A stretch of 64,000 nucleotides of DNA from a virus: IMG/VR virus record IMGVR_UViG_3300022562_001814, positions 104,738 to 168,737 of that record. The stretch is one strand, 5' to 3'. Position numbers and translations under genes: made by a program. Shown piece by piece: positions 11,569 through 42,000 of this stretch (the first letter of the stretch is position 1; every line of letters begins with the position of its first letter). Under the pieces are notes generated by a model, which was not told the origin of the DNA, ran no database searches, and saw nothing but the letters and a program-made list of their open reading frames with translations.

Positions 11569-11629
11569 ATAATCAATAAAATCAATAAGTTAAATGTTTG
11601 CAATAATATTGCATTGGAAAAGGATTATT

Positions 11630-12055
11630 ATGTCTTCAGATCTAAGAATTGTTAATGGCGATTTTATATTAAAAAATGGTGATTTAGAACAAATTACGGG
11701 ACAAAATAAATTAATTCAAGATATATTAAAAATATGTTTAACAGCTGCCGGATCTAATATTTATCAACCTTGGTATGGTTCTTTCATTTCTAAAACACTT
11801 ATTGGTTCGCATTTATCAACCGATATTACACTTACAATCGCTCAGAGTCAATTACAAAATGCATTAGAAAACCTTAAAAAATTGCAACAATTACAGCTAA
11901 ATAGTACATTACAACAAGTAACCCCAGATGAGCATATAGCAGGTATTAAAGAAGTTAAAGTAAGTAGAAATCAAATAGACCCAAGACTTTTTGAAGTAAT
12001 GATAAAGGTATTAAATAGAGAATTTAAGCAAACAATTGTTACTTTTAGTCCTTAA
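11630..12055 (+). CDS. gp25/gpW-like baseplate wedge protein
   Basis: 141 residues from the ATG at 11630. That start is preferred over the in-frame ATG at 11594 because AAAAGG lies just upstream and because the family begins with a short polar segment leading to 'DLRIVNGDFILKNGDLEQITG'. The gp25/gpW-like fold is indicated by the 'G-D-F...G-D...I-x-G...L-x-Q-D-I-L' pattern, a 'NIYQPWYGS' segment near residue 50 and a central helix. In T4, gp25 is a sheath-initiating wedge protein. The J-like wedge gene follows at once, the typical gp25-gp6 pairing, so the call is well supported. Confidence 0.8.
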   Translation: MSSDLRIVNGDFILKNGDLEQITGQNKLIQDILKICLTAAGSNIYQPWYGSFISKTLIGSHLSTDITLTIAQSQLQNALENLKKLQQLQLNSTLQQVTPDEHIAGIKEVKVSRNQIDPRLFEVMIKVLNREFKQTIVTFSP

Positions 12056-23152: not shown

Positions 23153-26100
23153 ATGAGAAAACCAATAAGCGCTAAACAAAATATTTGGTTTAATGGACAA
23201 GCAGTCGATAATAGCGATCTTACATTAGAGCAAGATTATAATAATCTAATCCAAACCGGTTTGATTCATAATCACTTAGGTACTGGTATTTTATTAGAAG
23301 ATTTAACACAAAATACTTTATTTGATTCTGATTTAGCTTCTGGATTATTAGATGGGAAGGCCACTGATGTTCAGTTACAACCCAATGATAGTAATTATGG
23401 TAATCAATTAGAAATAGAATTACAAAATTCCGAAGCTGCTGGAAAACGTAATTTTAAATTACTTATTATAGGTATTGATTTTGATAATAATTTACAATAT
23501 GACACGTTTGTATTTAATAGAAACGAAAAACAATTAAGTAAAAAACATTATACAAAAATTCTTAAAATATTATTTAATGATTTTATAGGCGATCCAACAG
23601 AATCTTTTAATTTAGGTGGTAGATTTACTATTAAAGAAGCCAAACCTTGTAGTTTAAGTAGAGATTGTGTTATGGTTGCTCAAGATTTACAACCTAATAT
23701 CTTTTTCAGAGATTTCTTTGTTGGTTCTGGTAGCAGTTTAAATACAGTATTAACTCTTGCATTACCTAGTTATAATATTGATACTTTAAATATTACTTCA
23801 GATTATAAACAATTAAGAGAATTAACCGAAGATGATGTAAGTTCTCAAATAGGTCAAAAATTTCAAGCAACAACTAATAATATTCAAAAAATAACATTAC
23901 TATTAGCAGTAACCAATTCCGTTGATCCTAATGATTTGGAATGGTCCGGAGATTTAATTATTAGCATATTTCAATTACAATCAGCACTTGATTGCCCATT
24001 AGATATTGCCCCAGGAACAGCTATTGAATTTGATCCTTCTAACATTCCATTAGCACAATTAAGTTTTAATTATAATAGTTTGTTAGATAAGGGAATACAA
24101 TTAGGAGAAACGCCACAACCGGTAGATTTTATTTTTAGTAACACTCCGGTTGGAAATGGAAGTATTATTAAAAACGGTAGCTATTATGTGGTTACTATGA
24201 AAAGAGCAGGTTCTGCAGATAAATGTACCATTCAAGCTGCTACGGGGGCTAATAGATTAGATAATTCTACAATTACATTTTTTAATGGTGCTATTTGGGT
24301 AGACGTACCAGATGAAGATTTATGGTTTCAAGTATGGACTGATTCGGCTAAAGTATCGGATGGACAAGCTTACGAATCGGGGCATGGAGTTATAATACCT
24401 AAAACTAACATTAATAATACAACGGGATTAACAGAAGATTATTCATTAGATGATATTCAATTTGTTAGAAATGATGTTTATTATGGTATCGTAGAGGCTA
24501 TAACAGAACAAAGCGTATTAGTTCAAGATCAAAGAACCGGAGAATCGGTAGTTTCACAACAACAGTTTATTCCAGAAATTTCATTACTAACAGCAACCCA
24601 ATTAGTTGAAAGAGAAAAAGTATCCGATCCTCTTATACTCGGTAGTATAACAGATAAAAATGCAAAATCAGTAAATGCTGGCACCGCCGACGTGTCTGCA
24701 AGCTTTCATCATTTCTCAATGATTAATAATAAATGCATTCTTAAAGTTATTGATGACCCGTCAGATGGGTATAGATATGATTTAAATGTTTTAAATTTGA
24801 TTACTGAATTAACCGGTAGCGGAGGCGTCTCTAACATTAATGGATTACTAAATGGTAAAATAGTTATAAACGATTTAGATACCTCTACTTTTTATCGTAT
24901 TGCTGACACCGAAATAATTTCTATGATTTATGGCGATTTAAATGGGGATGGGGTTGTAGATGATAATGATTTGTCAGAAATGTTAGATCTTTTAGATAGC
25001 GATTTAAATACAGTTCCAACATATGATGAATATATTACTCTTACCACTCTGTTCAAAGATGATAATAGCTTAACTTGGGAATTATTAGATGATGATTTAG
25101 TTACCGTTATTGCTTCTGGTTCAGATGGTATGATAACAGCTGATCCTCAAGATAGTACTAGAGCAATTTTTACTAGTGCTAGTGCCACCTTCACGGCGTT
25201 TTTATCATTAAGTACTAAAAGGCTTCGTATATTAAATGATATTAGTAATCCAGGTAATAACGGTTCGTTTAAAATTACTGGCTTAATTGATGATTATAAT
25301 ATAAATATTAGAAAAATATATTATAATTCTGATACTATTCTTAAAATTTTAAGAGCAGATATTAATGGGGATATGGTTGTAGACGCAACAGACGTAACTT
25401 TGATGACTAATTACATTGATAAAGTGGCTCCATTTCCTGCAACAACATCGCCTGCTAATAAAATTGGAACTAAATTTACAGCAATACGATTTACTTTGGA
25501 ACAATATATCGATAGAGCAGATGAATATACAGCTTCGTCCGAGCGCGGCATCGATGTACATCCTTTACCTGATATGTTGGTAGATGGTTATCTGGCTGGA
25601 TATTCTTTGTTTGGCATAGATTTAACGAATAGTCCGGTGGATTTTACAATCACCAAACAACTCAATTGGTTTAATTATTTGGTTAATACAAATTCTAATC
25701 CCAAATTAGTACCTATTTCTTTTAATTATCAAGAGGGCTTTAATATTAATGATTGTTCTTTAGACGGCATAGTTAATGATAAATATCCATTACCACCTAG
25801 TTTTGATCCGGGTAGAAATGATATGTTTTTACCAAATAATATAGTTGTTAATTATGGGGGAGAACTAGTACGTCCTGATGGATATTTTATGAAAATGGAT
25901 TTCGAGGTAGGAAATATAGTATTTGAAATTCCAGCAATATCATTTAGTGCTGAAAAAACTATTAACATTTTTACAGATTTTGTTGTAGATTATAGTGGTG
26001 ATGGGCATACTAGATTAGGTTATGAAGCCATGCGATTTGCTGATTGTTCATTTGTTGATTTGGATGCACTAAATAAAGAACAAGTTAGATTTACTGTGGC

Positions 26101-26359
26101 GGTCAGATCTTTTAGCCCCCAAATTGATGGCATAGATATTAATGATCTTGAAGGCGTTATTGTTGATGGTAGAATTGGAGTAGCAATAGATGCTTCTACC
26201 GGACTTTTAACTCTCAATTTCTCCAATCTATATGAAGACCCTATTTTACAAACTTTAAAAACAAGGGTACAAATAACTGTTTTCTTAAAAAAAGCTGGAT
26301 TTAATAACGATACTGTTATTATTAGTTCAACCAAAGTCAAAAATTTACTAGGATTGTAA
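23153..26359 (+). CDS. Tail or baseplate protein with two dockerin-like calcium loops
   Basis: 1068 residues. The opening 'KQNIWFNGQAVDNSDLTLEQDYNN' type segment resembles the start of several phage baseplate-periphery proteins. Two calcium-loop motifs typical of dockerin type I half-repeats are visible: GDLNGDGVVDDNDLSEMLDL at about residues 594-613, and ADINGDMVVDATDVTLMTNY at about 735-754. Each has Asp/Asn at loop positions 1, 3, 5, 9 and 12 followed by a hydrophobic helix. A normal dockerin pair is adjacent; here about 120 residues separate them, including a beta module. The start has AGAAGG at 23141-23146. The protein closes the tail module and could tether fibres or a receptor-binding partner; this is inference. 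Confidence 0.6.
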   Translation: MRKPISAKQNIWFNGQAVDNSDLTLEQDYNNLIQTGLIHNHLGTGILLEDLTQNTLFDSDLASGLLDGKATDVQLQPNDSNYGNQLEIELQNSEAAGKRNFKLLIIGIDFDNNLQYDTFVFNRNEKQLSKKHYTKILKILFNDFIGDPTESFNLGGRFTIKEAKPCSLSRDCVMVAQDLQPNIFFRDFFVGSGSSLNTVLTLALPSYNIDTLNITSDYKQLRELTEDDVSSQIGQKFQATTNNIQKITLLLAVTNSVDPNDLEWSGDLIISIFQLQSALDCPLDIAPGTAIEFDPSNIPLAQLSFNYNSLLDKGIQLGETPQPVDFIFSNTPVGNGSIIKNGSYYVVTMKRAGSADKCTIQAATGANRLDNSTITFFNGAIWVDVPDEDLWFQVWTDSAKVSDGQAYESGHGVIIPKTNINNTTGLTEDYSLDDIQFVRNDVYYGIVEAITEQSVLVQDQRTGESVVSQQQFIPEISLLTATQLVEREKVSDPLILGSITDKNAKSVNAGTADVSASFHHFSMINNKCILKVIDDPSDGYRYDLNVLNLITELTGSGGVSNINGLLNGKIVINDLDTSTFYRIADTEIISMIYGDLNGDGVVDDNDLSEMLDLLDSDLNTVPTYDEYITLTTLFKDDNSLTWELLDDDLVTVIASGSDGMITADPQDSTRAIFTSASATFTAFLSLSTKRLRILNDISNPGNNGSFKITGLIDDYNINIRKIYYNSDTILKILRADINGDMVVDATDVTLMTNYIDKVAPFPATTSPANKIGTKFTAIRFTLEQYIDRADEYTASSERGIDVHPLPDMLVDGYLAGYSLFGIDLTNSPVDFTITKQLNWFNYLVNTNSNPKLVPISFNYQEGFNINDCSLDGIVNDKYPLPPSFDPGRNDMFLPNNIVVNYGGELVRPDGYFMKMDFEVGNIVFEIPAISFSAEKTINIFTDFVVDYSGDGHTRLGYEAMRFADCSFVDLDALNKEQVRFTVAVRSFSPQIDGIDINDLEGVIVDGRIGVAIDASTGLLTLNFSNLYEDPILQTLKTRVQITVFLKKAGFNNDTVIISSTKVKNLLGL

Positions 26360-30023: not shown

Positions 30024-30869
30024 ATGACTGTACACGTATTAACATTAAATTGGCAGGGCAAAGACAAAATTAGTAAATTAAAGGAGAGTTTTCGCCCAGC
30101 TATAAAAGATATAGATTATGTTTGGCATATTAAAGATAATGGTTCAACAGATGGATCGGTTGAAGAAATTAAAAATTGGAATGATGTTAAATATAATTTA
30201 ATTGAATACCCAAATAATAGACAAAGTTATTCCCAGGGTATGAATCTTTTGTTTAAGGAAGCGTGTCCAAAAGATGATGATATTATATTAACTCTTAATA
30301 ATGATGTCATTTTTAATGATACAGTGTCATTAAAAAATATGATCAAATTATTAAAAGAAGATAATGATATTGGCATTGTTGGAGCCAAACTTAATTACAC
30401 AGATACGGATAAAATTCAACATTGTGGGGTCTTATTTCATAAGACAAATGGGTTGCCATATCATTATAGAGTTGGTGCTACAGAAACTGCGAGAGATACA
30501 ATTAATAGATATTATCCAGTAGTTACTGGGGCTGTTTCAATACTTCGCGCAGATACTTTTGCAAATTGTTTTACCAATAAATCTGGTTTTAAAGGTTTTA
30601 GGGAAGATTATTTCTTTGCTTTTGAAGATGTTGATATGTGTATGCGTATTAATAATCATTTAAATAAAAAAGTGTTGTATTGTGGTAAAACTAATATTTT
30701 TCATGAAGAAAGCGCATCTCTAAAGAAAAATCCGGTCCATAAAATGTTTATGAATAAAAATTCTAAATTATTTTTAGAGAGTTGGCATAAATATATAAAT
30801 GTTTTACTTTGTGAAAAATATGATGATCCTAATTATAATGTTTATGAAGTGAAAGAATTTAAAGAATAA
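30024..30869 (+). CDS. GT2-family glycosyltransferase
   Basis: 281 residues with a GT-A fold. It begins MTVHVLTLNWQG, has DNGSTDGS at 38-45 and the metal-binding LNNDV with Asp94, then GVVTGAV-type strands and the FAFEDVDMCMRI segment near residue 205 that is typical of rhamnosyl/GT2 enzymes. No membrane segments. AAGGA precedes the ATG. It is related to the C-terminal half of the 27552-28943 protein. It probably extends the same glycan as the other enzymes in this cluster; donor and acceptor cannot be told from sequence. Confidence 0.83.
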   Translation: MTVHVLTLNWQGKDKISKLKESFRPAIKDIDYVWHIKDNGSTDGSVEEIKNWNDVKYNLIEYPNNRQSYSQGMNLLFKEACPKDDDIILTLNNDVIFNDTVSLKNMIKLLKEDNDIGIVGAKLNYTDTDKIQHCGVLFHKTNGLPYHYRVGATETARDTINRYYPVVTGAVSILRADTFANCFTNKSGFKGFREDYFFAFEDVDMCMRINNHLNKKVLYCGKTNIFHEESASLKKNPVHKMFMNKNSKLFLESWHKYINVLLCEKYDDPNYNVYEVKEFKE

Positions 30870-30886
30870 ATATTAGGAATGTATAG

Positions 30887-31849
30887 ATGGATAAACGTCG
30901 TTTATTAATTACTGGTTCGGCAGGTTTCATAGGCTCGAATTTTATTCGTAAGACTATTTATGAAAAACACCCATACGAAATTTCAAGTGTGGATAAAATA
31001 GTTAATTCATCTATGTTGAATAATATTTATCAACATAAATTGCATGACTTTTATATAGCGGATATATGTGATCAACACATTATGGATAAAATTTTTGAAT
31101 ATGTAAAACCAGAAATTGTTATACATATGGCGGCTGAATCGGCAGTAGATAAGTCGATACATGATCCTGATGTTTTTATGAAATCAAATATATTGGGTAC
31201 ACAAAATTTAATCAATTTATCTTTAAAATATGATGTAAAATGTTTTTTGTATCAAAGTACTGATGAAGTCTATGGCGCCTTATCATCTAATGAGGATACT
31301 GCGTGGACAGAAGAATCGCCTTTAATTCCTAAAAACCCGTACTCTGCAAGTAAAGCGGCAGGAGAATTATTAATAAAGGCAGCTGCAAATACACATAATT
31401 TACCATTTATAATAGTCAGATCTTGTAATAATTATGGACCTAGACAAACGCCAGATAAATTAATTCCAAGAACCATTAAATGTTTATTAGAAAATAAACA
31501 AATTCCTGTTTATGGACAAGGATTACAAATTAGAGATTGGCTACATACACAAGATAATTGCGCTGCCATCCTTAAAATTTTACGTTCTGGAAAAGTTGGA
31601 GAAACATATAATATTTCCGCCAATCAAGAATTTACAAATATTGAAGTAGTTAAAATGATCTGTGATATAATGGATAAGAGCTATGATCATATCGATCATA
31701 TAACCGATCCAAGACCGGGTCACGATTTTAGATATAGTGTGAATTCAACAAAATTAAGAAATATGGGTTGGTTGCCAAGTTATAAATTTAAAGAAGGATT
31801 GCAACAAACAGTTGAATGGTTTTTAATGAATTCATTTTTTCTTAAATAG
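30887..31849 (+). CDS. dTDP-glucose 4,6-dehydratase-like SDR enzyme (RmlB-like)
   Basis: 320 residues, an extended short-chain dehydrogenase. The NAD-binding ITGSAGFIGS lies at 8-17, HMAAESAVDKS at 80-90, and the STDEVYG motif at 124-130 carries the Thr125-Asp126-Glu127 triad used by 4,6-dehydratases. The catalytic Tyr152 and Lys156 are in PYSASKAAGE. The length matches the family (about 310-360 residues). In bacteria RmlB converts dTDP-glucose to the 4-keto-6-deoxy sugar that feeds rhamnose and related pathways. No RmlA, C or D gene was seen in the window, so the rest of the pathway would come from the host or from elsewhere in the phage. AGGA lies upstream of the ATG. Confidence 0.84.
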   Translation: MDKRRLLITGSAGFIGSNFIRKTIYEKHPYEISSVDKIVNSSMLNNIYQHKLHDFYIADICDQHIMDKIFEYVKPEIVIHMAAESAVDKSIHDPDVFMKSNILGTQNLINLSLKYDVKCFLYQSTDEVYGALSSNEDTAWTEESPLIPKNPYSASKAAGELLIKAAANTHNLPFIIVRSCNNYGPRQTPDKLIPRTIKCLLENKQIPVYGQGLQIRDWLHTQDNCAAILKILRSGKVGETYNISANQEFTNIEVVKMICDIMDKSYDHIDHITDPRPGHDFRYSVNSTKLRNMGWLPSYKFKEGLQQTVEWFLMNSFFLK

Positions 31850-31857
31850 GAATAAAT

Positions 31858-33231
31858 ATGACAGTAAAAAATAGTATCTTGATTTTGCCTAAAGAGGACG
31901 TTATGGATGATTTAAATAAAGAAAATAAAACCGAAGAAAATGTATCAGCTGTTGATGTTGATAATGATAAATTAGCACAATTAAAAGCAAAATTAGAAGC
32001 AAAAAAAGAACAAGAGATGCCAAAAAGTAAAATAATTGAGAAAGTACGCTCCATAAATTTTGGAGTTGTTGGTAGTGGACAATGTGGTAGTAGATTAGCA
32101 GAATCATTTTATAAATTGGGATATGATGCTGTTGCTATAAATACTGCACAACAAGATTTAAAATTTATAGATTTGCCAGAAAGTAATAAGCTTTTATTAA
32201 ATTATGGTTTGGGTGGTGCAGCCAAGTCTTTAGAAATTGGTCGTGATGCAGCAGAAACACATAAAGAACAAATTGCAGAATTAGTAAATAATCAATTGGC
32301 TGATTCACAAATTTTTATATTTTGCACAAGTTTGGGTGGTGGTTCTGGAGCCGGATCAACCGAAACTATTATTGATATTTTAGCAAATATTGGTAAGCCT
32401 ATTTTGGTTATTACTGTTTTGCCAATGGATGCTGAAGATGTGCAGGCTAAACACAATGCATTGCAAACTTTAGAAAAATTACTTAAAGAAGTAAAAGCCA
32501 AGCGTATTCATAATTTGGTTTGTGTGGATAATGCAAAAATAGAAACAATTTATCGAGACGTTGGGCAAATGAACTTTTTCCATGTGGCGAATAGTGCAAT
32601 TGTTGATCCGTTAAATGTATTTAATTGTCAAAGCGCAAGACCGAGCCCTTCTAAAAGCCTCGATCCCATGGAATTAAGTAAGCTATTAATTGACGGTGAG
32701 GGATTAACGGTATACGGTACTTTTAATGTTGATAATTATCAAGAAGATACTGCCTTAGCTGAAGCCGTAATCAATAATTTAAATTCTAATTTGCTCGCCG
32801 GAGGATTTGATATTAAACAATCTAAATATGTTGGATTTATGTTATGTGCTTCAAAAGAAGTATGGAATAAAATACCGGCATCTAGTATTAATTATGCAAA
32901 CGCTATGATCGCTGATCAATGTGGTAGTCCATTGGGAATTTTCCGTGGTATTTATGAAATTGATACCAATGAAGATTGTGTTAAAGTATATTCTATGTTT
33001 AGCGGATTAGGGTTACCTACTATGCGCGTAGAACAGTTAACCAAAGAAACAAAAGAACATATGAATGTTGTGAAAAATAAAGATGCACAACGTAATTTAT
33101 CTTTAAATCTTGATTTAGGTAAAGATCAGGTTGTTTCTGACGCGCAAAAAGTAAAAGAAAAAATAGCACAAAAATCTTCTGCATTTGGTAAATTCTTAAA
33201 TCAAAACGTTGTAGATAGAAGAAAATCATAG
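31858..33231 (+). CDS. Tubulin/FtsZ-family GTPase
   Basis: 457 residues. The nucleotide-binding GVVGSGQCGSR lies at 69-79 and the tubulin signature loop appears as GGGSGAGS at about 160-167 (consensus GGGTGSG). VITVLPM follows near 183, and a candidate T7 loop is at about 268-282 (LDPMELSKLLIDGEG), with acidic residues that could act in GTP hydrolysis. A Lys/Glu-rich, probably helical extension of about 65 residues precedes the core, and the tail ends in a basic segment. The start at 31858 has AGGA; an ATG at 31903 behind AAGAGG is an alternative. Phage tubulins (PhuZ, TubZ type) form filaments that centre DNA or transport capsids. Which subgroup this belongs to cannot be decided by eye. Confidence 0.82.
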   Translation: MTVKNSILILPKEDVMDDLNKENKTEENVSAVDVDNDKLAQLKAKLEAKKEQEMPKSKIIEKVRSINFGVVGSGQCGSRLAESFYKLGYDAVAINTAQQDLKFIDLPESNKLLLNYGLGGAAKSLEIGRDAAETHKEQIAELVNNQLADSQIFIFCTSLGGGSGAGSTETIIDILANIGKPILVITVLPMDAEDVQAKHNALQTLEKLLKEVKAKRIHNLVCVDNAKIETIYRDVGQMNFFHVANSAIVDPLNVFNCQSARPSPSKSLDPMELSKLLIDGEGLTVYGTFNVDNYQEDTALAEAVINNLNSNLLAGGFDIKQSKYVGFMLCASKEVWNKIPASSINYANAMIADQCGSPLGIFRGIYEIDTNEDCVKVYSMFSGLGLPTMRVEQLTKETKEHMNVVKNKDAQRNLSLNLDLGKDQVVSDAQKVKEKIAQKSSAFGKFLNQNVVDRRKS

Positions 33232-33238
33232 GATCAAA

Positions 33239-33940
33239 ATGTTAGTACGAGTCCCCACTATTAAAACCAATTTCACAGTGAATGATTTTGTAAGAACATT
33301 AATAGGTGCTTGGAATAAATTATATAATAGCTTTCCGAATAAACAGCAAATAGCCGTTTTATATTCTCAATGGGGGGTAGAGACTGGTATTGGCAAATAT
33401 TGCTGGAATAATAATATTTCCAATATCAAGGCTGTTGATACGCCCGGTGTTGTTATTGAATATTGCGTTTTAAATGGTGCTTGGGAAATTATTAATGGTA
33501 AAAAAGTTTTTCTTAAACCAGAAAACCCTGGCTCTTGGTTTCGTTCTTTTCGTAAACTAGAAGATGGTATGGAATTCTATCTTAACTTTTTAAGAAACAA
33601 ACGTTATAAAATTGCCTGGACTGCAGTTGAACAAGGGGATTATCGCTTATTTGCTAAATTATTAAGGCAACAAGGATATTACACAGCATCAGAAGCAGCT
33701 TATGCTAATGCTATGAGTTATCATTTTAATAAATTCATGAAAGATAATATTTTTGAAAATGAACTCTTAATAGCTGTAAATGAAATTAGTTTTCCAAGTG
33801 ATTGGGAACCGGTAAATTTTGATGTCAAAGAGAATGTTTTTACTAAGCCAGATAATCCTGTCTTACCAAATCCACCAGCCCCTAAACAAAGTATTTTTGA
33901 TGTAGCTTTTTCTAAAATAAGAAAGATAATTAATAAATAA
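33239..33940 (+). CDS. Glucosaminidase/lysozyme-like cell wall hydrolase (endolysin candidate)
   Basis: 233 residues. Residues of about 25-190 read like the lysozyme-like glucosaminidase fold: LYSQWGVETGIGKYCWNNN with the likely catalytic Glu48, followed by NIKA, a 'SWFRSFRKLEDGMEFYLNFL' block and YYTASEAAYANAM. These parts match the E-x-G...N-x-x-x-N-x-K pattern of peptidoglycan N-acetylglucosaminidases. No signal peptide or membrane segment is present, so export would need a holin, which was not identified nearby. The Pro-rich C-terminus (about 205-220) may be a linker. It could be the lytic enzyme or a virion-borne wall hydrolase. It starts 7 bases after the tubulin gene with AGGA. Confidence 0.7.
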   Translation: MLVRVPTIKTNFTVNDFVRTLIGAWNKLYNSFPNKQQIAVLYSQWGVETGIGKYCWNNNISNIKAVDTPGVVIEYCVLNGAWEIINGKKVFLKPENPGSWFRSFRKLEDGMEFYLNFLRNKRYKIAWTAVEQGDYRLFAKLLRQQGYYTASEAAYANAMSYHFNKFMKDNIFENELLIAVNEISFPSDWEPVNFDVKENVFTKPDNPVLPNPPAPKQSIFDVAFSKIRKIINK

Positions 33941-34398
33941 TGTTATTTAAAGTAAGTTGTGAAACTCAGGTAATTAAATATATTTCTTTTTGTATTTCTA
34001 ATGAAGATATTATTACCGGTCAAGTGGCAAACAAAATCTCAGATGAGATACAAAAACGTGATATTTTAGATTTAAAACATCTTTCATCATATTGTTATAA
34101 TTGGCAAGATTCCAGAAATTGTGCTATTGAATGTTTTGCAAGTTTTAATCGTAAATATATTGTATTTAAAGAAATACTTTCTAAAAAAAGATTAGAAGAA
34201 ATTAAAAGATATAAAAACCAAGCCGCCGCCATTAATACTTCTAGCGTTTTTGATGGATATTTTTCAACCCCATTATCTACTAATGCTTCTACGGCTTCTA
34301 CAGCTTCTACAGCTTATTATACTTATACCTATACGCTCAGTAACAATTATTTTTCTGACGGCTATTATAATATAATTGGCAATACTATTCGAAGGTAA
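33940..34398 (+). CDS. Unknown protein, paralogue of the next gene
   Basis: 152 residues, family not recognised. It starts in a TAATG overlap with the wall hydrolase. The N-terminal 75 residues share a pattern with the following gene (M-[LI]-F-K-V at the start, a Cys in an I-S-x-C-type strand near 18-29, an 'IT' helix, then a 'C...F' strand), so the two look like a diverged tandem duplication. The C-terminal part is low complexity, with a Ser-Thr-Ala run near residue 115 and then Tyr/Thr-rich sequence. No membrane segment. Function unknown. Confidence 0.6.
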   Translation: MLFKVSCETQVIKYISFCISNEDIITGQVANKISDEIQKRDILDLKHLSSYCYNWQDSRNCAIECFASFNRKYIVFKEILSKKRLEEIKRYKNQAAAINTSSVFDGYFSTPLSTNASTASTASTAYYTYTYTLSNNYFSDGYYNIIGNTIRR

Positions 34399-34400
34399 AA

Positions 34401-35042
34401 ATGATTTTTAAAGTTAATAGCAAGTCAATAGCAATTAAAGATCAAAATACATATATTTCAGTTTGTGCAAATAAATTATACGATCACGATATTACTAATA
34501 TTATTTATAAAAATTTATTTGATAAAAAAATAATTGAAATACCACGTCATATTTTTTCTTGTGAGGTTTTTGCCCAACCCCCATTTGTTATTAAGTGTTA
34601 TTTTTATAAATCTGGAAAAAATAAATCTATTTGTAAATTACACGAATTAACTTCTAAAACATATTCTATATTTAATTCAATTCCTATCGATTCATATGTT
34701 TTACCAAATATTAAAAAAACAATAAGAATCGGTAGTTGGGTAGATGCTTTAGAAGATCCTTGGGATAACTCTTTTTCTACTAATATTAGATTAACATATA
34801 GACCTGTAGATAATAATATATTTGCTAATATGAATCCAAATATAGAAAATGAAATTGTGCAATCTGCTACCGTTAATATAGCTGAAGAAATAGATCAGCA
34901 AATGTTAGATGAGTTAAATTATATAGTTGATGCACCAGTAGAAGTTCAGCCAGAAGTTCAGCCAGAAGTTCAGGAAGTTCAGCCAGAAAATGGAATAACG
35001 CATTTCATTAATTTTCAATTTCCTAGAACTCAACAAATATGA
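34401..35042 (+). CDS. Unknown protein with a Glu-Val-Gln-Pro repeat
   Basis: 213 residues, unrecognised. The first 75 residues resemble the start of the preceding gene. Residues of about 165-195 are acidic, and near the C-terminus there is a short repeat built from the unit E-V-Q-P (DNA 34939-34986, unit gaagttcagcca), probably a flexible linker. It ends in an ATGA overlap with the helicase gene, so it is likely co-translated with replication genes. AAGG overlaps the upstream stop. Function unknown. Confidence 0.6.
   Translation: MIFKVNSKSIAIKDQNTYISVCANKLYDHDITNIIYKNLFDKKIIEIPRHIFSCEVFAQPPFVIKCYFYKSGKNKSICKLHELTSKTYSIFNSIPIDSYVLPNIKKTIRIGSWVDALEDPWDNSFSTNIRLTYRPVDNNIFANMNPNIENEIVQSATVNIAEEIDQQMLDELNYIVDAPVEVQPEVQPEVQEVQPENGITHFINFQFPRTQQI
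34939..34986 (+). repeat. Short 12-base tandem repeat inside a coding region
   Basis: The unit gaagttcagcca is repeated about three and a half times with one shortened copy, coding for an E-V-Q-P repeat. Such runs expand and contract by slippage. Confidence 0.7.
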
Positions 35043-36502
35043 ATCAATTAATTATACAAAATAATAAAATTTGTAATATTAAATTGCCGGATAATCCCGA
35101 ATGTTTAATTGAATTAAAACATTTGCTCTCGTTTAAAATGATTGGGGTAGAATATACGCAGGCTTTTAAAAACGGATGGGATGGATTTACTTATCTTTTA
35201 GATAAAAAGGGTAATTTTCCATTAGGTCTTTTATCAAAAGTAAAAGATTTTCTAACTGATAGAAATATTAATTTTACTATTATAGATAAAAGAGTTAAAT
35301 TACAAATTAATCCAGAAATAGATATTTCTCAAAATTTAAAATTAATTAATAAGGAACCGAGAGATTATCAACAGGCTATAGTTGATGCGGCTGTTGTAAA
35401 TCAAAAAGGTATTATTAGAGCATGTACCGGTTCAGGAAAGACGCTCGCGGCCGCCCTAATAACCGCAAAATTAAATAAACCGACTATTATTTACGTTATC
35501 GGGCTAGATTTACTTCAACAATTTCATCAAACATTTTCTGAAATCTTTAAACAACCAATTGGATTTATTGGAAATGGTGTATGTGATATTCAAAATATTA
35601 ATATCGTAAGTATTTGGACAGTAGGTAAAGCTTTAGATATTAAATTTAAAATGTTTGATGAAGATGAAATAGAAAAAGAAAAATTCGATATTGTTAATAA
35701 ATTTAAAATTCAACAACTACTTAAAAAAACCGAATTACATATATTTGATGAATGCCATATTGCCGCTTGTGATACTATAAAAGAAATTTATAAACATATA
35801 GATCCTATACATATTTATGGTATGAGCGGTACTCCTTACAGAGATGATGGTTCGGATTTACTAATTAATGGTATGCTTGGAGAACAAATTATAAATGTTA
35901 CTGCATCAGATTTAATTGAAAGAAAAATACTCTCTCAACCAATTATTAAATTTATAAATGTTCCAGCAATTCCGGTATATTCTAGAACTTATGCAGAGGT
36001 GTATAATGAATACATTGTTGAAAATGATGTAAGAAATCATTTAATTATACAAGAGTCTAAAAATTTGCTTGAAAAAGGTTATCAAGTTTTAGTATTATTT
36101 AGACATATTAAACATGGTAAAAATTTATATAAATTATTTAAAGAAAATAAAATAAAATGTGAAATATTGCATGGGGCACACGATTTAGAATATCGTACAG
36201 AAATTAAAAATCGACTTTTAGCAAAAGATATAGATTTAATTTTAGCATCTACTGTATATGATATTGGTATTGATATAGGCAGCTTGAATGGTTTAGTGTT
36301 AGCTGGTAGTGGCAAAAGTAGTATTAAAGCACTTCAACGTATAGGTCGGGTCATTCGAGGTTATCCTGGTAAAAATTTTTCAGCAATTGTAGATTTTGTA
36401 GATAATGTGAGATTTCTTAAAAAACATTCAGAAGCTAGATATAAAGTATATGCTTCAGAAAAAGGTTTCATAGTCAAATGGCCAAAACAAAGTTACATGT
36501 AG
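35039..36502 (+). CDS. uvsW: UvsW-like superfamily 2 DNA helicase
   Basis: 487 residues. Helicase motif I is CTGSGKT at 129-135, motif II is DECH at 237-240, motif III is SGTPYRDDGSD, motif V is ASTVYDIGIDI and motif VI is QRIGRVIRG. The N-terminal 110 residues form a small domain ahead of motif I, as in T4 UvsW. T4 UvsW remodels recombination and stalled-fork structures, unwinds R-loops and shifts replication from origin to recombination mode. Length matches (T4 UvsW is about 500 residues). It starts in an ATGA overlap and its end overlaps the next gene by 25 bases. The gene is in a replication cluster with a DnaC-like loader and a DnaB-like helicase. The call is firm at family level. Confidence 0.85.
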   Translation: MNQLIIQNNKICNIKLPDNPECLIELKHLLSFKMIGVEYTQAFKNGWDGFTYLLDKKGNFPLGLLSKVKDFLTDRNINFTIIDKRVKLQINPEIDISQNLKLINKEPRDYQQAIVDAAVVNQKGIIRACTGSGKTLAAALITAKLNKPTIIYVIGLDLLQQFHQTFSEIFKQPIGFIGNGVCDIQNINIVSIWTVGKALDIKFKMFDEDEIEKEKFDIVNKFKIQQLLKKTELHIFDECHIAACDTIKEIYKHIDPIHIYGMSGTPYRDDGSDLLINGMLGEQIINVTASDLIERKILSQPIIKFINVPAIPVYSRTYAEVYNEYIVENDVRNHLIIQESKNLLEKGYQVLVLFRHIKHGKNLYKLFKENKIKCEILHGAHDLEYRTEIKNRLLAKDIDLILASTVYDIGIDIGSLNGLVLAGSGKSSIKALQRIGRVIRGYPGKNFSAIVDFVDNVRFLKKHSEARYKVYASEKGFIVKWPKQSYM

Positions 36503-37065
36503 ATAAAGATCCTCTTTTAACTGACAATGTTTCCGAACATTATAAAAAATTTTTTAATAAATTTGAAGAAATAAATAGTTTACCGATAACAGAATGGAAA
36601 GTTGTTCATTTACTCGGTTATTTATGTGCTAAATACGAAGCATATTATAATTTAAAATATTCTTTTAAATTTAACAATCCAGCTCCATCAAAATCATATG
36701 AAGTGTATCAGATTAAAAAATTATCTAATATGCTTAGTTCTGATCCCACAATATTAAAACAATATTTGGACTGGGTATTCGATAAAAAAATTATAGAAAA
36801 AAATAAAAGAATCACTTCATTAGGGTATTTTACCCATTTAGATATAATAAATGAATTTAAATTTAAATTTTTATTTAACAAAAAAACAATTATTAGAACT
36901 GATAATCTACCAGATTCGATTATTAATATATGTTCTAAATATGGAGTTAGTATATCAAATTACGCGGAGTTAGCTTTCGTAAAAAAAATGCCAGACAAAT
37001 CGGATTTAATTAATGAAATTAAAGATACTGGATTTGATTTAAATATTTTGGATAAAATAGCATGA
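36478..37065 (+). CDS. Unknown replication-module protein
   Basis: 195 residues, basic and helix-rich, not recognised. It overlaps the UvsW-like gene by 25 bases and the next gene by 4 (ATGA). The sequence has no cysteine pairs, Walker motif or membrane segment. Position between two helicase-related genes suggests a replication accessory protein, but there is no motif to support a specific role. Confidence 0.6.
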   Translation: MAKTKLHVDKDPLLTDNVSEHYKKFFNKFEEINSLPITEWKVVHLLGYLCAKYEAYYNLKYSFKFNNPAPSKSYEVYQIKKLSNMLSSDPTILKQYLDWVFDKKIIEKNKRITSLGYFTHLDIINEFKFKFLFNKKTIIRTDNLPDSIINICSKYGVSISNYAELAFVKKMPDKSDLINEIKDTGFDLNILDKIA

Positions 37066-37577
37066 ACCCCGAAAAAGGACAAAAAGTACAAGTTAGATTT
37101 AATAATGGTATTTATTTTGATGCCATAGTAGAAGAGTGGACTGACAATAAATCCAAATTAATTCTTATGGACGGAGAACAGGTAATTATTCAAAAAACTT
37201 TACAAGATGTTTTGTTAGTAAAAATTATTGAACAAACCAAAACCACTTTAGATTCTGAAGTAAAAAGTGAGATAAAACCAAAATTAGATAAACCAGTTTT
37301 AATAGATAAATTAGAAAAAATTAGAAATAATCTTAAAGACGAATTGGCTCTTAAAGAAATGGCAGAACTCAAAGATGAATTAAATAAAATAGAAAGACAA
37401 GAAACATTTAATTCAATGGATAAATTTAAAGATACTGGATTGAAAGAAGTACATTATGCTTTCCCAAGAAATATACAGATCGACAGCCCTACACAATATT
37501 CCAAGCAAAAAATTACACCAACAAATTCTGAATTTGATTCAGAGCTGCAAAGTTTGTTCAAGCAAAAACATAAATAA
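37062..37577 (+). CDS. Unknown protein with an SH3/Sm-like N-terminus
   Basis: 171 residues. The first 60 residues form a strand-rich pattern (GQKVQVRFNNGIYFDAIVEE, then a second hairpin LILMDGEQVII) that looks like a small SH3- or Sm-like barrel. A long Lys/Glu-rich helix follows at about 65-110, then a disordered Ser/Thr/Gln-rich tail. The start lies in an ATGA overlap. The last 122 bases overlap the proposed start of the helicase-loader gene in another frame. Function unknown, possibly nucleic-acid or protein binding. Confidence 0.58.
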   Translation: MNPEKGQKVQVRFNNGIYFDAIVEEWTDNKSKLILMDGEQVIIQKTLQDVLLVKIIEQTKTTLDSEVKSEIKPKLDKPVLIDKLEKIRNNLKDELALKEMAELKDELNKIERQETFNSMDKFKDTGLKEVHYAFPRNIQIDSPTQYSKQKITPTNSEFDSELQSLFKQKHK

Positions 37578-38313
37578 TATAAAAGATGTGCCTAATAATG
37601 GATTATGTTCTTATTGTTCGATAAAAATATCATTATTTCATGAATACTATAATGCTAATATTCCTGTTAATTATTGGAATTTGAAAATGCCAATAAATCT
37701 TGCGTTAGAAAAATTAGATAATAAATCTCAACGTATTTTGGCAATAGAAACAATTAGAAAAATATCTAAACTACCAAATTATGAGCCTATAGAATCATTG
37801 CTTAATCATAAGTTAATGGAAATTGATAAAATTTATGTAGAAAGTATTGGTAACGTGAAAAATTCATATAATAATGGTTTATCATATTGTTTGGCCGGAC
37901 CTCATGGTACTGGAAAAACACTGTCTGTTACAAGTATTTTAAAAAGCATTATACAGCAGAAATTTACAGGATTATATACCACGCTAAGTGATGTTGTAAA
38001 TGTTTTAACCACCGCTACAAGTGAAGATAAATTTTTAGCTAGAAAAGAATTGTTGGAAATTGATTTTCTTATTATAGATGAATTCGATTCTAGATTTATC
38101 GGCACAGAGAACGCAGCCGATTTATTTGGAAGGACTCTTGAAAATATTTTAAGAACTAGATTGCAAAATAAATTACCAATCATTCTTGTAAGCAATAGTC
38201 CAAATCCCATTGAAACATTTCATGGTCCTCTAAAACAAAGTTTAGAAAGTTTGATGAACCAGGTGCCTTTAAAAGTTGTTATAGGACAAGACTATCGAAA
38301 ACAATTGGTTTAA
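37456..38313 (+). CDS. DnaC-like helicase loader ATPase with N-terminal zinc finger
   Basis: 285 residues. An N-terminal zinc finger CKVC...CSYC (about residues 31-54) is followed by a helical linker and a AAA+ core: Walker A AGPHGTGKT at 147-155 and Walker B LIIDEFDSR at 205-213. VSNSPNP near 247 is a likely sensor 1 region. The layout matches DnaC/IstB-type loaders that place the replicative helicase on DNA, and a DnaB-like gene follows. The ATG at 37456 gives a 122-base overlap with the upstream gene; an in-frame TTG at 37534 would keep the zinc finger with less overlap but lacks a clear ribosome site, so the start is uncertain. Confidence 0.8.
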   Translation: MLSQEIYRSTALHNIPSKKLHQQILNLIQSCKVCSSKNINNIKDVPNNGLCSYCSIKISLFHEYYNANIPVNYWNLKMPINLALEKLDNKSQRILAIETIRKISKLPNYEPIESLLNHKLMEIDKIYVESIGNVKNSYNNGLSYCLAGPHGTGKTLSVTSILKSIIQQKFTGLYTTLSDVVNVLTTATSEDKFLARKELLEIDFLIIDEFDSRFIGTENAADLFGRTLENILRTRLQNKLPIILVSNSPNPIETFHGPLKQSLESLMNQVPLKVVIGQDYRKQLV

Positions 38314-38318
38314 ACCAA
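38305..38318. promoter_or_regulatory. Perfect 14-base palindrome before the DnaB-like gene
   Basis: TTGGTTTAAACCAA at the end of the loader gene includes its stop codon. Flanking ACAA and TTGT extend the stem with a small bulge. It may be a hairpin separating the two genes or a protein-binding site. Confidence 0.45.
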
Positions 38319-38320
38319 AG

Positions 38321-38351
38321 TTGTCTATATTAAAATTATCCTTATTATAAT
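38321..38351 (+). promoter_or_regulatory. Candidate promoter of the DnaB-like gene
   Basis: TATAAT at 38346-38351 is a perfect -10 box. TTGTCT at 38321-38326 is a possible -35 box at a long 19-base spacing. It lies in the only sizeable gap of this replication cluster, with GGAAG and the ATG at 38370 downstream. AT-rich DNA makes chance hits common. Confidence 0.4.
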
Positions 38352-38369
38352 GATACGCGGGAAGAATAT

Positions 38370-39758
38370 ATGACTTATCAAGAATTAGATTTAATAATAC
38401 TTAAACATATTTTATTTAATAAAAAAAATGCTTTAGAATTCATTCATGATTGTAATGAAAAAATTTTTGTTCCAGATATTTGGAGATTTGCTAAAATTAT
38501 TCTTGATTATGTTCGCATTTATAAAGAAATTCCCACCAGAAAAGTAATTAATGAAAGAAATAAAAAAAATGAAACTTTAATTAATTATATTAATCAGATT
38601 TGGGATGATTTAGATAAAATAAATATAGATGAAAAAGAATATAAACACGATTTAGAAAAAATTAAAAACAGGTTTGTAGAAAAATTAATTTATGATTTAA
38701 GAGAGCATTTAGTTGAAGAAGACGGTAGGGTTAACTTAACGAAAAGTATTAGTGAATTAAATTCTACAGTAAATCATATTAAAGGTATTAATCAAATTAA
38801 AGCCTATGAACAAAAAACTTTAAAAGAATCTTTGGAAGATTTTAAAAATAGATACGTGGCTAAGATGCATGATCCTAATTTAGGCGTCGGGCTTAAAACA
38901 GGATATGGGTTTCTTGATTTTGTTATGGGCGGACTCAGAAAACAAGAGCTTTTACTTATTGGTGCTGAAACGGGGATTGGTAAAAGCCTTTTAATGATGA
39001 ACATAGGTCTCAATATGTGGTTAGGAGAAAATGAATTAACTACTACAGAAGATTTTAAGCCAGGATGTGATATTTTATATTTTTCATTAGAAATGCCTCA
39101 TGCTGATATGTTAGAAAGAGTATTAGCTTGTATTGCTAAGGTACCACAAACCGCAATTCGTGATGCTACTTTAACTAAAGAACAAGCACAACAATTAAAA
39201 GAAGCCTTGCAATTTATTGATAAATATCCACACGATTTTACAATAGTAGACATTCCACGGGGAGCTACTATGGAAAGTATCGAATTAATATTTAATGATA
39301 TTGTGGCAACCAAAAATAAAAAACCACAAGTTATAATAATTGATTATTTAGCACTATTATCACATGATCAAAAGGACGTTGCCGATTGGTTACAATTAAA
39401 TTATTTAAGTGAAGCTTTTCACGAAATGATCAGAACACACGATGTTGCTGGCATAACAGCTACTCAATTAAATAGACCGGCAGCCAATAAAGGTGGTTCA
39501 GACCAAACCGGTCTTCATAGATTGAGCCGTTCAGCTTTGCAGGCAGCAAATTCTAATTTTGTACTCTTAATTGATAAACGTCCAAATGAACAAGAATTGC
39601 CAAATATGCAGTTACATTTAGTAAAATCAAGACGTACGCCACTTGTAAGTGGTACGATTTATAAACAGCTTTCCTGTTGCGCATTGCTTAATAGTCCTAC
39701 GGAAGAACATATGGAAAGTTGTGTTGATATATCTGAATCAGAAGTAGAAAATTTATAG
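38370..39758 (+). CDS. DnaB-like replicative helicase
   Basis: 462 residues. An N-terminal helical domain (about 1-160) is followed by the RecA-like DnaB core: TGYGFLDFVMGGLRKQELLLIGAE, Walker A GAETGIGKS at 198-206, FSLEMP near 237 with the conserved Glu, Walker B VIIIDYLALL at 321-330, then ATQLNRPA and KSRRTP. This matches DnaB/T4 gp41 helicases, which unwind DNA 5' to 3' ahead of the polymerase as a hexamer. The loader gene lies just upstream. GGAAG precedes the ATG. Length is typical. Confidence 0.9.
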   Translation: MTYQELDLIILKHILFNKKNALEFIHDCNEKIFVPDIWRFAKIILDYVRIYKEIPTRKVINERNKKNETLINYINQIWDDLDKINIDEKEYKHDLEKIKNRFVEKLIYDLREHLVEEDGRVNLTKSISELNSTVNHIKGINQIKAYEQKTLKESLEDFKNRYVAKMHDPNLGVGLKTGYGFLDFVMGGLRKQELLLIGAETGIGKSLLMMNIGLNMWLGENELTTTEDFKPGCDILYFSLEMPHADMLERVLACIAKVPQTAIRDATLTKEQAQQLKEALQFIDKYPHDFTIVDIPRGATMESIELIFNDIVATKNKKPQVIIIDYLALLSHDQKDVADWLQLNYLSEAFHEMIRTHDVAGITATQLNRPAANKGGSDQTGLHRLSRSALQAANSNFVLLIDKRPNEQELPNMQLHLVKSRRTPLVSGTIYKQLSCCALLNSPTEEHMESCVDISESEVENL

Positions 39759-39933
39759 AAGAAAAGGTTTTGAAAAATTAGCATAACTTATCCAAAACAA
39801 TAATGAGATAAAAGTGGTAGTAAATAAATATAGTGAAGTTTATGGTAATGGTTTTATAGTTTAATTAGATTGTGGCAATGAGGTTGCTTCTATCCTCAAG
39901 AATACCAAATAGATTATGTAATTAGAGCGGTAT
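39759..39933. other. Non-coding stretch after the DnaB-like gene
   Basis: 175 bases with stops in all frames of the + strand and no recognisable RNA gene. Short open pieces (for example around 39810-39850) could be debris of a lost gene, since the next gene is itself a deleted HNH relative. No strong promoter is seen. Confidence 0.4.
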
Positions 39934-40110
39934 ATGTCGGTTTTACAAGATAAACAATGTATTGATTGCAAAGAGATTAAAACTTTGAGTGATTTTGAAT
40001 TGCGTCAGGAATTTAGGGATTGTTGGGCGCTGTCTAATTTACGGCCTTATTCTGCAAAACAAAATCAACTTGACGGTGCAACAAAATTAAGACATAAAAA
40101 GGGAAAATAA
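39934..40110 (+). pseudogene. HNH endonuclease remnant with the nuclease core deleted
   Basis: 58-codon open frame. Residues 9-24 (CIDCKEIKTLSDFELR) match the N-terminal zinc-knuckle segment of the HNH protein at 43049 (CTKCNISKSLDYFTKR). They run straight into 'DCWALSNLRPYSAKQN', which matches the C-terminal end of that same protein. The linker and the DHIIP part of the active site are missing, as expected from an internal deletion. The frame is intact and ends in a TAATG overlap with the next gene, so a small zinc-knuckle peptide might still be made, but nuclease activity is not expected. Confidence 0.75.
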
Positions 40111-40418
40111 TGCCATCATATGAGTATTTGTGTGAAGTTGTAAATGAAGAATTTGAGGCGGAACACTCAATTAAAATTGTTTTAGATGAATGTTTGCTTT
40201 GCAAAACGGCAGGTCGCTCCCCACATGTGCCTAAACGTTTGATCTCGGGCGGTTCGGGTAAAGGGATCGTAGAGAAATCTTTTAATGAAATGAAAGAATC
40301 ATTCGCTAGCGATGTAGCAAAAATGAGAAAAGATGTCCTTGGTTCGGAAAAAAAATTGGCGAACGTCATAGGAGAGTCCAAATATCATAATAACGAATTA
40401 TCTAGAACAAGAAGATGA
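40110..40418 (+). CDS. FmdB-like small zinc-ribbon protein
   Basis: 102 residues. It begins MPSYEYLCEVVNEEFEAEHS, the typical start of FmdB-type zinc ribbons, with a CLLC pair near residue 29 and KRLISGGSG marking the end of the family domain. The second cysteine of the first pair is missing, so zinc binding may be impaired. The C-terminal half is a charged helix. A smaller relative lies at 40960-41148. FmdB-like proteins are common in phages and bacteria; their role is unclear. Confidence 0.7.
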   Translation: MPSYEYLCEVVNEEFEAEHSIKIVLDECLLCKTAGRSPHVPKRLISGGSGKGIVEKSFNEMKESFASDVAKMRKDVLGSEKKLANVIGESKYHNNELSRTRR

Positions 40419-40427
40419 GAGGAAGAT

Positions 40428-40655
40428 ATGTCAAATCAAAATTCACAAGATCAACTTATTAATTTTGCCGTGAAAGAATTACATAAAGTGCTTAATGATC
40501 TTAAGCAAGGTAAAGAGCCAAACATGTCTCCTGCCATCCAAAAACTTTCTTTAGAATTAGAAACAGCAAAAGAAAAAAAAGCAAAAATGTCCGAATCAGA
40601 AATTAAAGAATGGGCGGAACGTATTGTTAAAGAAGTTTCTAATTTAGGAGAATAA
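40428..40655 (+). CDS. Small helical protein of unknown function
   Basis: 75 residues, polar, Lys/Glu/Gln-rich and predicted to be almost entirely helical. A strong GAGGAAG ribosome site lies 9 bases downstream of the previous stop. No motif recognised. Confidence 0.55.
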   Translation: MSNQNSQDQLINFAVKELHKVLNDLKQGKEPNMSPAIQKLSLELETAKEKKAKMSESEIKEWAERIVKEVSNLGE

Positions 40656-40656
40656 A

Positions 40657-40776
40657 ATGAATATTAATTTATCTGAAAATATTATTTTATTATTAAATAA
40701 TATTAAACATAAAACAATTCATTCTAAACAAAAAGATTTATGTAATATAAAAGTATGTCAAGTATGGATATTTTAA
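40657..40776 (+). CDS. Possible 39-residue small protein
   Basis: Open frame of 39 codons starting one base after the previous stop, with GGAG upstream (40648-40651). The peptide has a hydrophobic Ile/Leu stretch followed by a Lys/Cys-rich part (CNIKVC). It overlaps the start of the TGA-broken gene in another frame, so it may not be real. Function unknown. Confidence 0.35.
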   Translation: MNINLSENIILLLNNIKHKTIHSKQKDLCNIKVCQVWIF

Positions 40777-40949
40777 AAAATGGAATTAATATTACTGATT
40801 CACCTTACGAATTAGCCGGATGATTAGCATCAAGAAAATGGGAACATTTATATTTTGATGAAAACAGTCAAAGTTGGGTAGTTATACCTTTGGGTAGTTA
40901 TACTATTACGAAAATAACAGAAGAACAGGTCAATGAATTATTAAAATAA
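40755..40949 (+). pseudogene. Small gene interrupted by an in-frame TGA
   Basis: The frame from ATG 40755 to TAA 40947-40949 is 64 sense codons long apart from a TGA at 40821-40823 (codon 23), inside '...SPYELAG-stop-LASRKWEHLYF...'. The downstream part has coding-like composition and the same 'I-T-x-E-Q-x-x-E-L' ending as small proteins elsewhere in the window (for example 48677-48850). TGG (Trp) would restore the frame by one base. TGA is used as a normal stop elsewhere in this genome, so a nonsense mutation or an assembly error are the likely explanations. Confidence 0.5.
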
Positions 40950-40959
40950 GAGATATAAA

Positions 40960-41148
40960 ATGCCACTATACGAATATATGTGTCCAAAACATAATGAATT
41001 TGAAGTTCAACAATCTATTAAAGACGACCCTCTAGAATTTTGTCCTCAATGTAAAGAAGAAGGAGCAGACACTCCAGTTAAAAAATTAATTTCACAATCT
41101 TCTTTCGTCTTAATGGGTGGCGGTTGGGCTGCTGATAATTATAAATGA
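40960..41148 (+). CDS. FmdB-like zinc-ribbon protein (short form)
   Basis: 62 residues. MPLYEYMCPKHNEFEVQQSI starts the family motif with C-x-x-H in place of the first CxxC, and CPQC follows near residue 28. PVKKLIS leads to a Gly-rich end (MGGGWAADNYK). The metal-binding set is therefore C-H-C-C. It ends in an ATGA overlap with the next small gene. Related to the 102-residue protein at 40110. Confidence 0.75.
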   Translation: MPLYEYMCPKHNEFEVQQSIKDDPLEFCPQCKEEGADTPVKKLISQSSFVLMGGGWAADNYK

Positions 41149-41303
41149 TAGACCCTAATAAATCAGATAAAACAAAAAAAATGCAACAAATTATTAAGTT
41201 GCTTAAATTTTTGTTAACTCTAGATGATATGGAGATCATTAAAAATACTTTAGAATCTGTAATTGAAATTTTAGAAGAAGAAAATAATAATAACGAATCA
41301 TAG
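41145..41303 (+). CDS. Small unknown protein
   Basis: 52 residues, starting in an ATGA overlap with the FmdB-like gene. It has a helical Lys/Leu/Ile-rich middle and an acidic Glu/Asn-rich C-terminus. No motif recognised. The overlap and continuous coding composition support it as real. Confidence 0.55.
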   Translation: MIDPNKSDKTKKMQQIIKLLKFLLTLDDMEIIKNTLESVIEILEEENNNNES

Positions 41304-41373
41304 CAATAGTGAAGCATATTTTTACTACAAAAGAAATATTAAGTTGTGCCGTTTAAAAATAAAGGGTTAACGC

Positions 41374-42000
41374 ATGAGTATCGATGAAGCTCAAGATTTG
41401 ATGAAACAATTAATTAAATATCGTGAAAAGGCAAATAAAACAAAAGCATCAAAAGATGTTCGTAGTTTTAAAAATCATGAACGTCTTTGTATTGAAAAAT
41501 TTAAATATTTAGTAATGGGTAAAGTGGCTAAATATAGAAATTTTAGTAATTATGAGGACTTAGTGCAAGATGGTTTAGAAGCTTTAACGAAAGCAATGAG
41601 AAATTATAATCCAGAAAAAGGTATTTTTTTCTGGTGGGCTCATAAATATATTGATACTTGTATAGCGCGTCGCGCTAATTTACATACAACTATTAGGTTT
41701 CCTTTAAAATATGCTAAAAAAGTTGCCCCTCATAGAGAATCCGTTTTACCCGTATTAATTGATCAGTTATCCGGACCTCATGATATTTTAGAACGAAATG
41801 AAGCATTGAGAGCGGTTAATAAGAATTTTTCTAATTTATCCACAAATCAAAAGAAAGTTGTTCAGATGCTATTTGGTATAGATAATGAACAACCACAATC
41901 TATTTCAAAAGTTTGTCAACGTTTACGTATTTCTAGGCCGACTTGTGTGAAATTATTAGATCAAGTTTTTACTATTTTAAGAAAAAACGTTCAGTTGTAA
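41374..42000 (+). CDS. Sigma-70-family factor (gp55-like)
   Basis: 208 residues. Region 2 is visible at about residues 56-100: NYEDLVQDGLEALTKAMRNY, then NPEKG, FFWWAHKYI and a basic segment, which is the core-binding and -10-recognition block. Region 4-like helices with a helix-turn-helix (SISKVCQRLRISRPTCVKLL) are at about 176-195. Region 1.1 and most of region 3 are absent, as in short phage sigma factors such as T4 gp55. It should bind host RNA polymerase and direct a class of phage promoters. AAAGGG lies upstream of the ATG. A TATAAATA box at 52804 is a possible target. Confidence 0.8.
   Translation: MSIDEAQDLMKQLIKYREKANKTKASKDVRSFKNHERLCIEKFKYLVMGKVAKYRNFSNYEDLVQDGLEALTKAMRNYNPEKGIFFWWAHKYIDTCIARRANLHTTIRFPLKYAKKVAPHRESVLPVLIDQLSGPHDILERNEALRAVNKNFSNLSTNQKKVVQMLFGIDNEQPQSISKVCQRLRISRPTCVKLLDQVFTILRKNVQL

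Follow-up and report, generated by a model that had tools for sequence, protein, structure and literature searches.

A TubZ-like tubulin linked to the DNA-replication genes of jumbo phages in which no nucleus shell gene is detected

What is the role of a phage tubulin when there is no phage nucleus to centre? A 2021 overview distinguishes two types of phage FtsZ/tubulin, one for segregation and one for compartments (PMC7824862), and a survey of huge phages mentions tubulin homologues as PhuZ (PMC7162821). A 2025 survey presents tubulin as a function that sets the Chimalliviridae apart, a few scattered exceptions aside (PMC11835377). The window analyzed here, a stretch of 64,000 nucleotides, corresponds to bases 104738–168737 of a 200,737-bp virus record and encodes a 457-residue protein of the tubulin superfamily (Table 1). 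The closest relatives of this protein, referred to as clade A, comprise 59 non-redundant sequences (less than 90% identical to each other) that are 40–64% identical to the window protein and are found only in uncultured phage contigs; given this number in one public collection, and records of up to 481 kb, the lineage is probably common. The reading proposed, with a probability of roughly 0.55, is that the protein is a GTP-dependent, filament-forming, TubZ-like tubulin at the core of the DNA-replication programme of probably virulent, nucleus-less jumbo phages. If true, this would be a different way of organizing viral DNA in the cell, without a protein nucleus.

The initial annotation described a tubulin/FtsZ-family GTPase, and both sequence and structure bear this out. 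The PF00091 (Tubulin) model gives the protein 65.4 bits (cut-off 33), and the gene is the only one in the 200,737-bp record to match it. Bacillus cereus TubZ is the best solved relative in a single-sequence phmmer search (1.4e-14), a match that rises to 3.2e-21 in a profile search. The AlphaFold2 model has a pLDDT of 81, with most of the GTPase core above 90, and contains the C-terminal (second) domain of tubulins as well as the GTPase domain. Foldseek aligns the model over about 400 columns and returns TubZ-Bt protofilament structures first, followed by FtsZ and CetZ; ranks 1–21 are all TubZ. The loops named in the annotation are present at residues 69–79 (T1), 160–167 (T4), and 268–277 (T7). 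In the T7 loop, D269 is invariant (100%) across the 59 relatives and E272 is conserved in over 90% of them. The protein most likely forms filaments as TubZ does, a claim that is strong at the level of the fold.

Table 1. Features of the tubulin locus, its neighbours, and related intein-bearing genes (window coordinates unless a locus is named)
Feature	Coordinates	Strand	Basis
Sheath-initiator-like protein	11594-12055		match just below cut-off
Baseplate_J protein	12079-16146		8e-22
GDP-mannose 4,6-dehydratase/epimerase-type gene, directly upstream of tubulin, in the place where TubR is absent	30887..31849	+	PF16363 2.9e-62
Ribosome-binding site (AGGA) that shares bases with the stop codon of the epimerase gene before it	31848..31851	+	read from sequence
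Tubulin/FtsZ-superfamily GTPase, TubZ-like phage tubulin (ATG start, 457 codons, 457 aa)	31858..33231	+	PF00091 1.1e-17; AF2 model; Foldseek TubZ 3.4e-25
N-terminal extension, residues 1-65, disordered except one helix	31858..32052	+	AF2 models, column conservation
T1 nucleotide-binding loop GVVGSGQCGSR; intein site in relatives L191 and L212	32062..32094	+	sequence, alignment
T4 signature loop GGGSGAGS	32335..32358	+	sequence, alignment
T7 catalytic loop LDPMELSKLL (residues 268-277)	32659..32688	+	D269, E272 conservation
Long C-terminal helix, H11-like, residues 388-418	33019..33111	+	AF2 models
Basic, low-confidence C-terminal tail, residues 401-457	33058..33228	+	two models, alignment, charge count
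Glucosaminidase-type endolysin-like gene, variable insert between tubulin and UvsW	33239..33940	+	PF01832 1.2e-8
UvsW-like DNA helicase, fixed downstream partner	35039..36502	+	phrog_16 5.9e-69; synteny
195-aa protein without a match to any family; its place between UvsW and the DnaC-like loader is conserved across the lineage	36478..37065	+	synteny
171-aa protein, no family assigned, in most module copies	37062..37577	+	synteny
DnaC-like helicase loader	37456..38313	+	phrog_50 1.1e-16
DnaB-like replicative helicase	38370..39758	+	phrog_19 3e-54
Intein-bearing tubulin genes	L191:2893-5664; L212:2-1957		Pfam for L191, sequence for L212

The T1 loop is interrupted by inteins in two relatives. 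In L191, the loop is split (GSGQAG, C...HN, SRLAE), and Pfam detects intein splicing and LAGLIDADG domains; L212 has the same C-terminal junction, with the intein read from the sequence. Inteins usually occupy conserved active sites of proteins that are indispensable to the host of the element. The placement of inteins in the T1 loop therefore supports a functional nucleotide site in the phage tubulin and suggests that the tubulin matters to the phage. No report of an intein in a gene of the tubulin superfamily stood out in the literature searched, which was covered in part.

The ends of the protein differ in how well they match the initial annotation. The N-terminal extension, described as 65 helical residues, is instead mostly disordered in the models, with a single predicted helix at residues 36–50/51; mean column conservation in the 59 sequences is 0.49 for residues 1–34 and 0.66 for residues 35–51. 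At the C-terminus, residues 401–457 are mostly of low confidence in two structure models, and since a deeper alignment left the tail unfolded in the second model, it is taken to be a linear motif of flexible structure. Conservation of residues 422–457 is nonetheless 0.69–0.73 in the 59 sequences, against 0.71 for the core. Two motifs, RNLxLNLDxG and KSSAFGKxxxxVxDRRK, are conserved across clade A, and R412, S441, D453, and R455 are conserved at 98–100%. The last 35 residues have a net charge of +4 to +11 in 59/59 relatives, in contrast with the acidic patches that end six PhuZ proteins examined, and the tail is thus basic and unlike PhuZ, as had been noted.

The relationship to host FtsZ is one of superfamily and fold (TM-score of about 0.75–0.8, normalized by target). 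In a maximum-likelihood tree, clade A forms one group (support 100/99) and FtsZ forms its own clade (100/100), which places the window protein outside host FtsZ. Clade A also holds, with a support of 98, when the longest branches are removed; its exact sister is unsettled because the plasmid TubZ and PhuZ rows are very long branches. The curated NCBIfam ftsZ model scores the protein at 63.6 bits, below its cut-off of 295.2, and similarity to the PhuZ and canonical FtsZ references is hardly detectable. Phages are known to target FtsZ, and a phage protein of the same superfamily might mix with or mimic FtsZ to block cytokinesis and provide a longer cell for a large phage. Such interference with host division is quite improbable here: the best FtsZ match is 31% over 135 residues (E = 0.004), the tail lacks the FtsZ C-terminal partner peptide and has a different motif, the full catalytic set is retained, and the gene is linked to replication genes. 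One member of the family is already deposited: by sequence, with 57% identity across 457 alignment columns, UniProt A0A6J5RW92 belongs to it, and this protein is known only by its database name, 'FtsZ Cell division GTPase [uncultured Caudovirales phage]'. Neither a study of A0A6J5RW92 nor a description of the tubulin of this lineage was found in the literature searched, the latter in partial coverage.

Like the window protein, PhuZ of the Chimalliviridae (phiKZ gp39) is a tubulin homologue encoded by jumbo phages, and the window protein has a weak match to the PHROG PhuZ family (phrog_4733, 1.9e-5). A comparable role would be to form a spindle by which a proteinaceous nucleus is centred and supplied with capsids. 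The evidence makes this highly improbable. The PhuZ of phiKZ is only 22% identical to the window protein over 211 residues (E = 0.005), and PhuZ forms a separate clade (100/100) on a very long branch, apart from clade A. PhuZ proteins are about 320–345 residues in length, compared with 457 in the window protein, and their C-terminus is an acidic knuckle rather than the basic tail of clade A. The absence of a nucleus shell gene, first noted within the window, extends to the whole 200.7-kb record, which may be incomplete and has no member of the chimallin family (phrog_4795), and to 35 other phage records of 42–481 kb, which may likewise be incomplete and consist of tubulin-bearing phages and one tubulin-less relative; phiKZ was positive in these searches. 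Phmmer searches with the phiKZ chimallin, PhuZ, and RNA polymerase proteins gave no match, and the Rpb2-type RNA polymerase subunit family is absent from 16 records, which may be incomplete. Since this lineage keeps a tubulin in a fixed place while the shell gene is missing, phage tubulin is separable from the nucleus.

Among the known systems, TubZ, represented by Bacillus, Priestia, and Paenibacillus plasmids and by gp138 of phage G, is the best fold match and shares with the window protein the GTPase loops and a long H11-like helix. Its C-terminal domain is also related, as relative L191, the only one to do so and unlike the window protein itself, matches PF22453 (TubZ-like_C) above cut-off (36.8 compared with 26 bits). 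The plasmid TubZ references, which are from other plasmids than pXO1 and do not include the TubZ of phage C-st, and phage G gp138 are 21–25% identical to the window protein over full-length matches. A type III partition system (TubZRC) that maintains the phage in a carrier state like a plasmid, of the kind known from phage C-st and from Bacillus plasmids, would agree with the plasmid TubZ proteins being the closest solved structures and with the basic, flexible tail that several of them have. The partner components are missing, however. Small genes at the TubR position precede most of the plasmid TubZ genes examined; clade A tubulins lie in a phage replication module without TubR. With a TubR profile, candidates turn up next to the tubulin in the bacterial loci L101 (3.4e-6) and L115 (2.2e-4), and gp137 of phage G resembles plasmid TubR, but no TubR-like gene is present beside the tubulin in any clade A locus or anywhere in the record of the window. 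A repeat search on three stretches within 30700–41400 revealed no tubC-like iteron array near the gene, and no tyrosine integrase was found in eight records, which may be incomplete. A carrier-state partition system is therefore unlikely, and the lineage consists probably of virulent phages. Because the TubR and tubC tests are negative, the protein is not considered a member of a TubZRC system, and it belongs to neither PhuZ nor FtsZ.

In the place of TubR, the window has an epimerase-type gene, and the overlap of the AGGA site with its stop codon suggests that the tubulin is co-transcribed with it. In Bacillus phage G, gp137 (L004:14713-15009) lies directly before the tubulin gene and resembles two plasmid TubR-position proteins (pairwise about 1e-7); phage G may for this reason carry a TubRZ pair. 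In the phage G record, the small protein is named only gp137.

The clade A gene occupies a fixed position. In the nearest relatives, the tubulin is followed by a UvsW-like helicase, a 195-residue protein, mostly a small gene of no assigned function, a DnaC-like loader, and DnaB. So that the choice of loci would not depend on the tubulin, a DnaB alignment was used to scan the collection; the best 80 of 377 candidates were taken, and the loci chosen therefore represent near kin only. UvsW is in view in 72 of the 78 loci that resulted, and in 69/72, some of which are near-duplicates, the tubulin lies on the same strand upstream of UvsW at a distance of −19 to 2,849 bp (median 484). The genes between the two turn over among the kin loci. 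The exceptions are L165, a truncated contig, and the pair L178 and L180, apparently from one phage; the fragmentary 61-kb record of L178 (G228) has the replication module and no tubulin. L178 and L180 could represent a natural loss of tubulin within the lineage and could reveal a replacement. Each of 19 kin records of 204–481 kb has a single tubulin copy, including two whose tubulin match is broken up by an intein. Inteins occur in the replication genes as well: one is detected by Pfam in a UvsW helicase (L018:9598-12279), a second UvsW is similarly enlarged (L022:9977-12745, 922 aa), and a DnaC-like loader contains a LAGLIDADG insert (L022:13708-15453). The replication module of this lineage looks like an intein hot spot.

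The initial annotation had suggested a role in DNA or virion placement. The DNA half of this suggestion is strengthened by the analysis: because the gene is fixed beside replication genes in 69/72 kin loci, DNA placement is the best-supported role, and it is held to be somewhat more probable than not, with the reminder that a gene neighbourhood is an association and not a mechanism. In the proposed mechanism, subunits would polymerize head to tail, with the T7 loop (D269, E272) of one subunit completing the GTPase site of its neighbour. Through the basic tail, the filament would be attached to the DNA of the phage or to a protein of its replication machinery, a direct substitute for the TubR-tubC link of plasmid TubZ. 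Growth or treadmilling of the filament may then position or spread the phage DNA within the cell as it replicates. The C-tail of plasmid TubZ is a binding site for partner proteins and also contributes to assembly (PMC5322520), while the acidic knuckle of PhuZ serves polymerization (PMC3678025). From these precedents, a tether to DNA or the replisome is the favoured reading of the basic tail; by analogy with PhuZ, the tail could also act in polymerization only.

The phage itself was initially described as one with T4-type baseplate genes. The description is only partly correct: a contractile tail is indicated by Baseplate_J, the sheath-initiator-like protein, and a weak tail sheath match, but the phage as a whole is not T4-like given its terminase (phrog_675; the closest isolates are Bacillus siphophages at about 24% identity) and its DNA polymerase (phrog_405, with DNA polymerase III alpha-like matches). 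Further phage genes include a class I ribonucleotide reductase, a sigma factor, PhoH, and an endonuclease VII-like gene. The baseplate genes are followed at 23153–26359 of the window by a gene for a 1068-residue protein with a dockerin-type stretch (PF00404, 3.5e-7).

More distant tubulins are found in a second group of phages (group B; 28–35% identity), whose proteins lack the C-terminal tail. The main distant group has its tubulin gene beside the terminase; elsewhere it is found close to T4-type portal and head genes, and another group (L069, L089) has it between UvsX and DnaB. DNA-handling neighbours are present in each tubulin phage group and were counted for a DNA role. The location near the terminase in this main distant group, and near the portal and major head protein genes in L077, would also suit filaments that transport capsids or deliver genomes to the sites of packaging. 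For clade A, such a packaging track is unlikely, as none of the loci examined has the gene next to packaging genes and its linkage is to replication. In a large set of environmental phages (L060, L023, L029, and other group B loci), the tubulin gene comes shortly after the terminase and one further gene of ∼650 residues, and the tubulin has a conserved N-terminal DIxxPDIxxP motif.

The family is not confined to phages. A profile of three sequences gave no relative on genome contigs and a broader profile gave 20 bacterial loci, and the idea of a phage-only family was dropped. Tubulin-like genes are present on bacterial chromosomes, chiefly those of Phycisphaerae and Omnitrophota (L100, L102–L107, L111–L114, and L118), and the encoded proteins are 29–34% identical to the window protein, above the TubZ, PhuZ, and FtsZ references over full-length matches. 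Unlike clade A, these are cellular genes beside metabolic genes, and their products are without the C-tail. Many have Lys/Arg-rich, histone-like N-terminal tails with a net charge of up to +84. Going by names assigned from their sequences, the neighbours that recur between genomes form the order GAPDH-PGK-ribulose-phosphate epimerase-tubulin-accD in some cases and comprise signal peptidase I with a pseudouridine synthase in others. An origin from prophages or misbinned contigs was rejected for most of these loci on account of the metabolic neighbours shared between genomes. L116 does resemble a phage contig, and TubR-like genes lie next to the tubulin in L101 and L115.

The link to these chromosomal relatives provides a second opening. 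Planctomycetes are reported to be without FtsZ, and Phycisphaerae nonetheless divide by binary fission (PMC5147048). The chromosomal tubulins are candidate cytoskeletal or nucleoid proteins in FtsZ-lacking bacteria. As a tentative and rather doubtful extension, nucleus-less jumbo phages may have a tubulin cytoskeleton of their own that is an essential part of the replication core, is tied to DNA by a basic tail instead of TubR or a shell, and belongs to a family shared with a little-known tubulin on the chromosomes of FtsZ-lacking Phycisphaerae. The Phycisphaerae-type genomes examined encode no Pfam Tubulin protein other than the chromosomal tubulin and, in some cases, a single paralogue of it. 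The genomes of L101, L113, and L115 have a second Pfam Tubulin match of FtsZ strength, and a Pfam Tubulin match of any kind occurs in 5 of 199 sampled Planctomycetota genomes.
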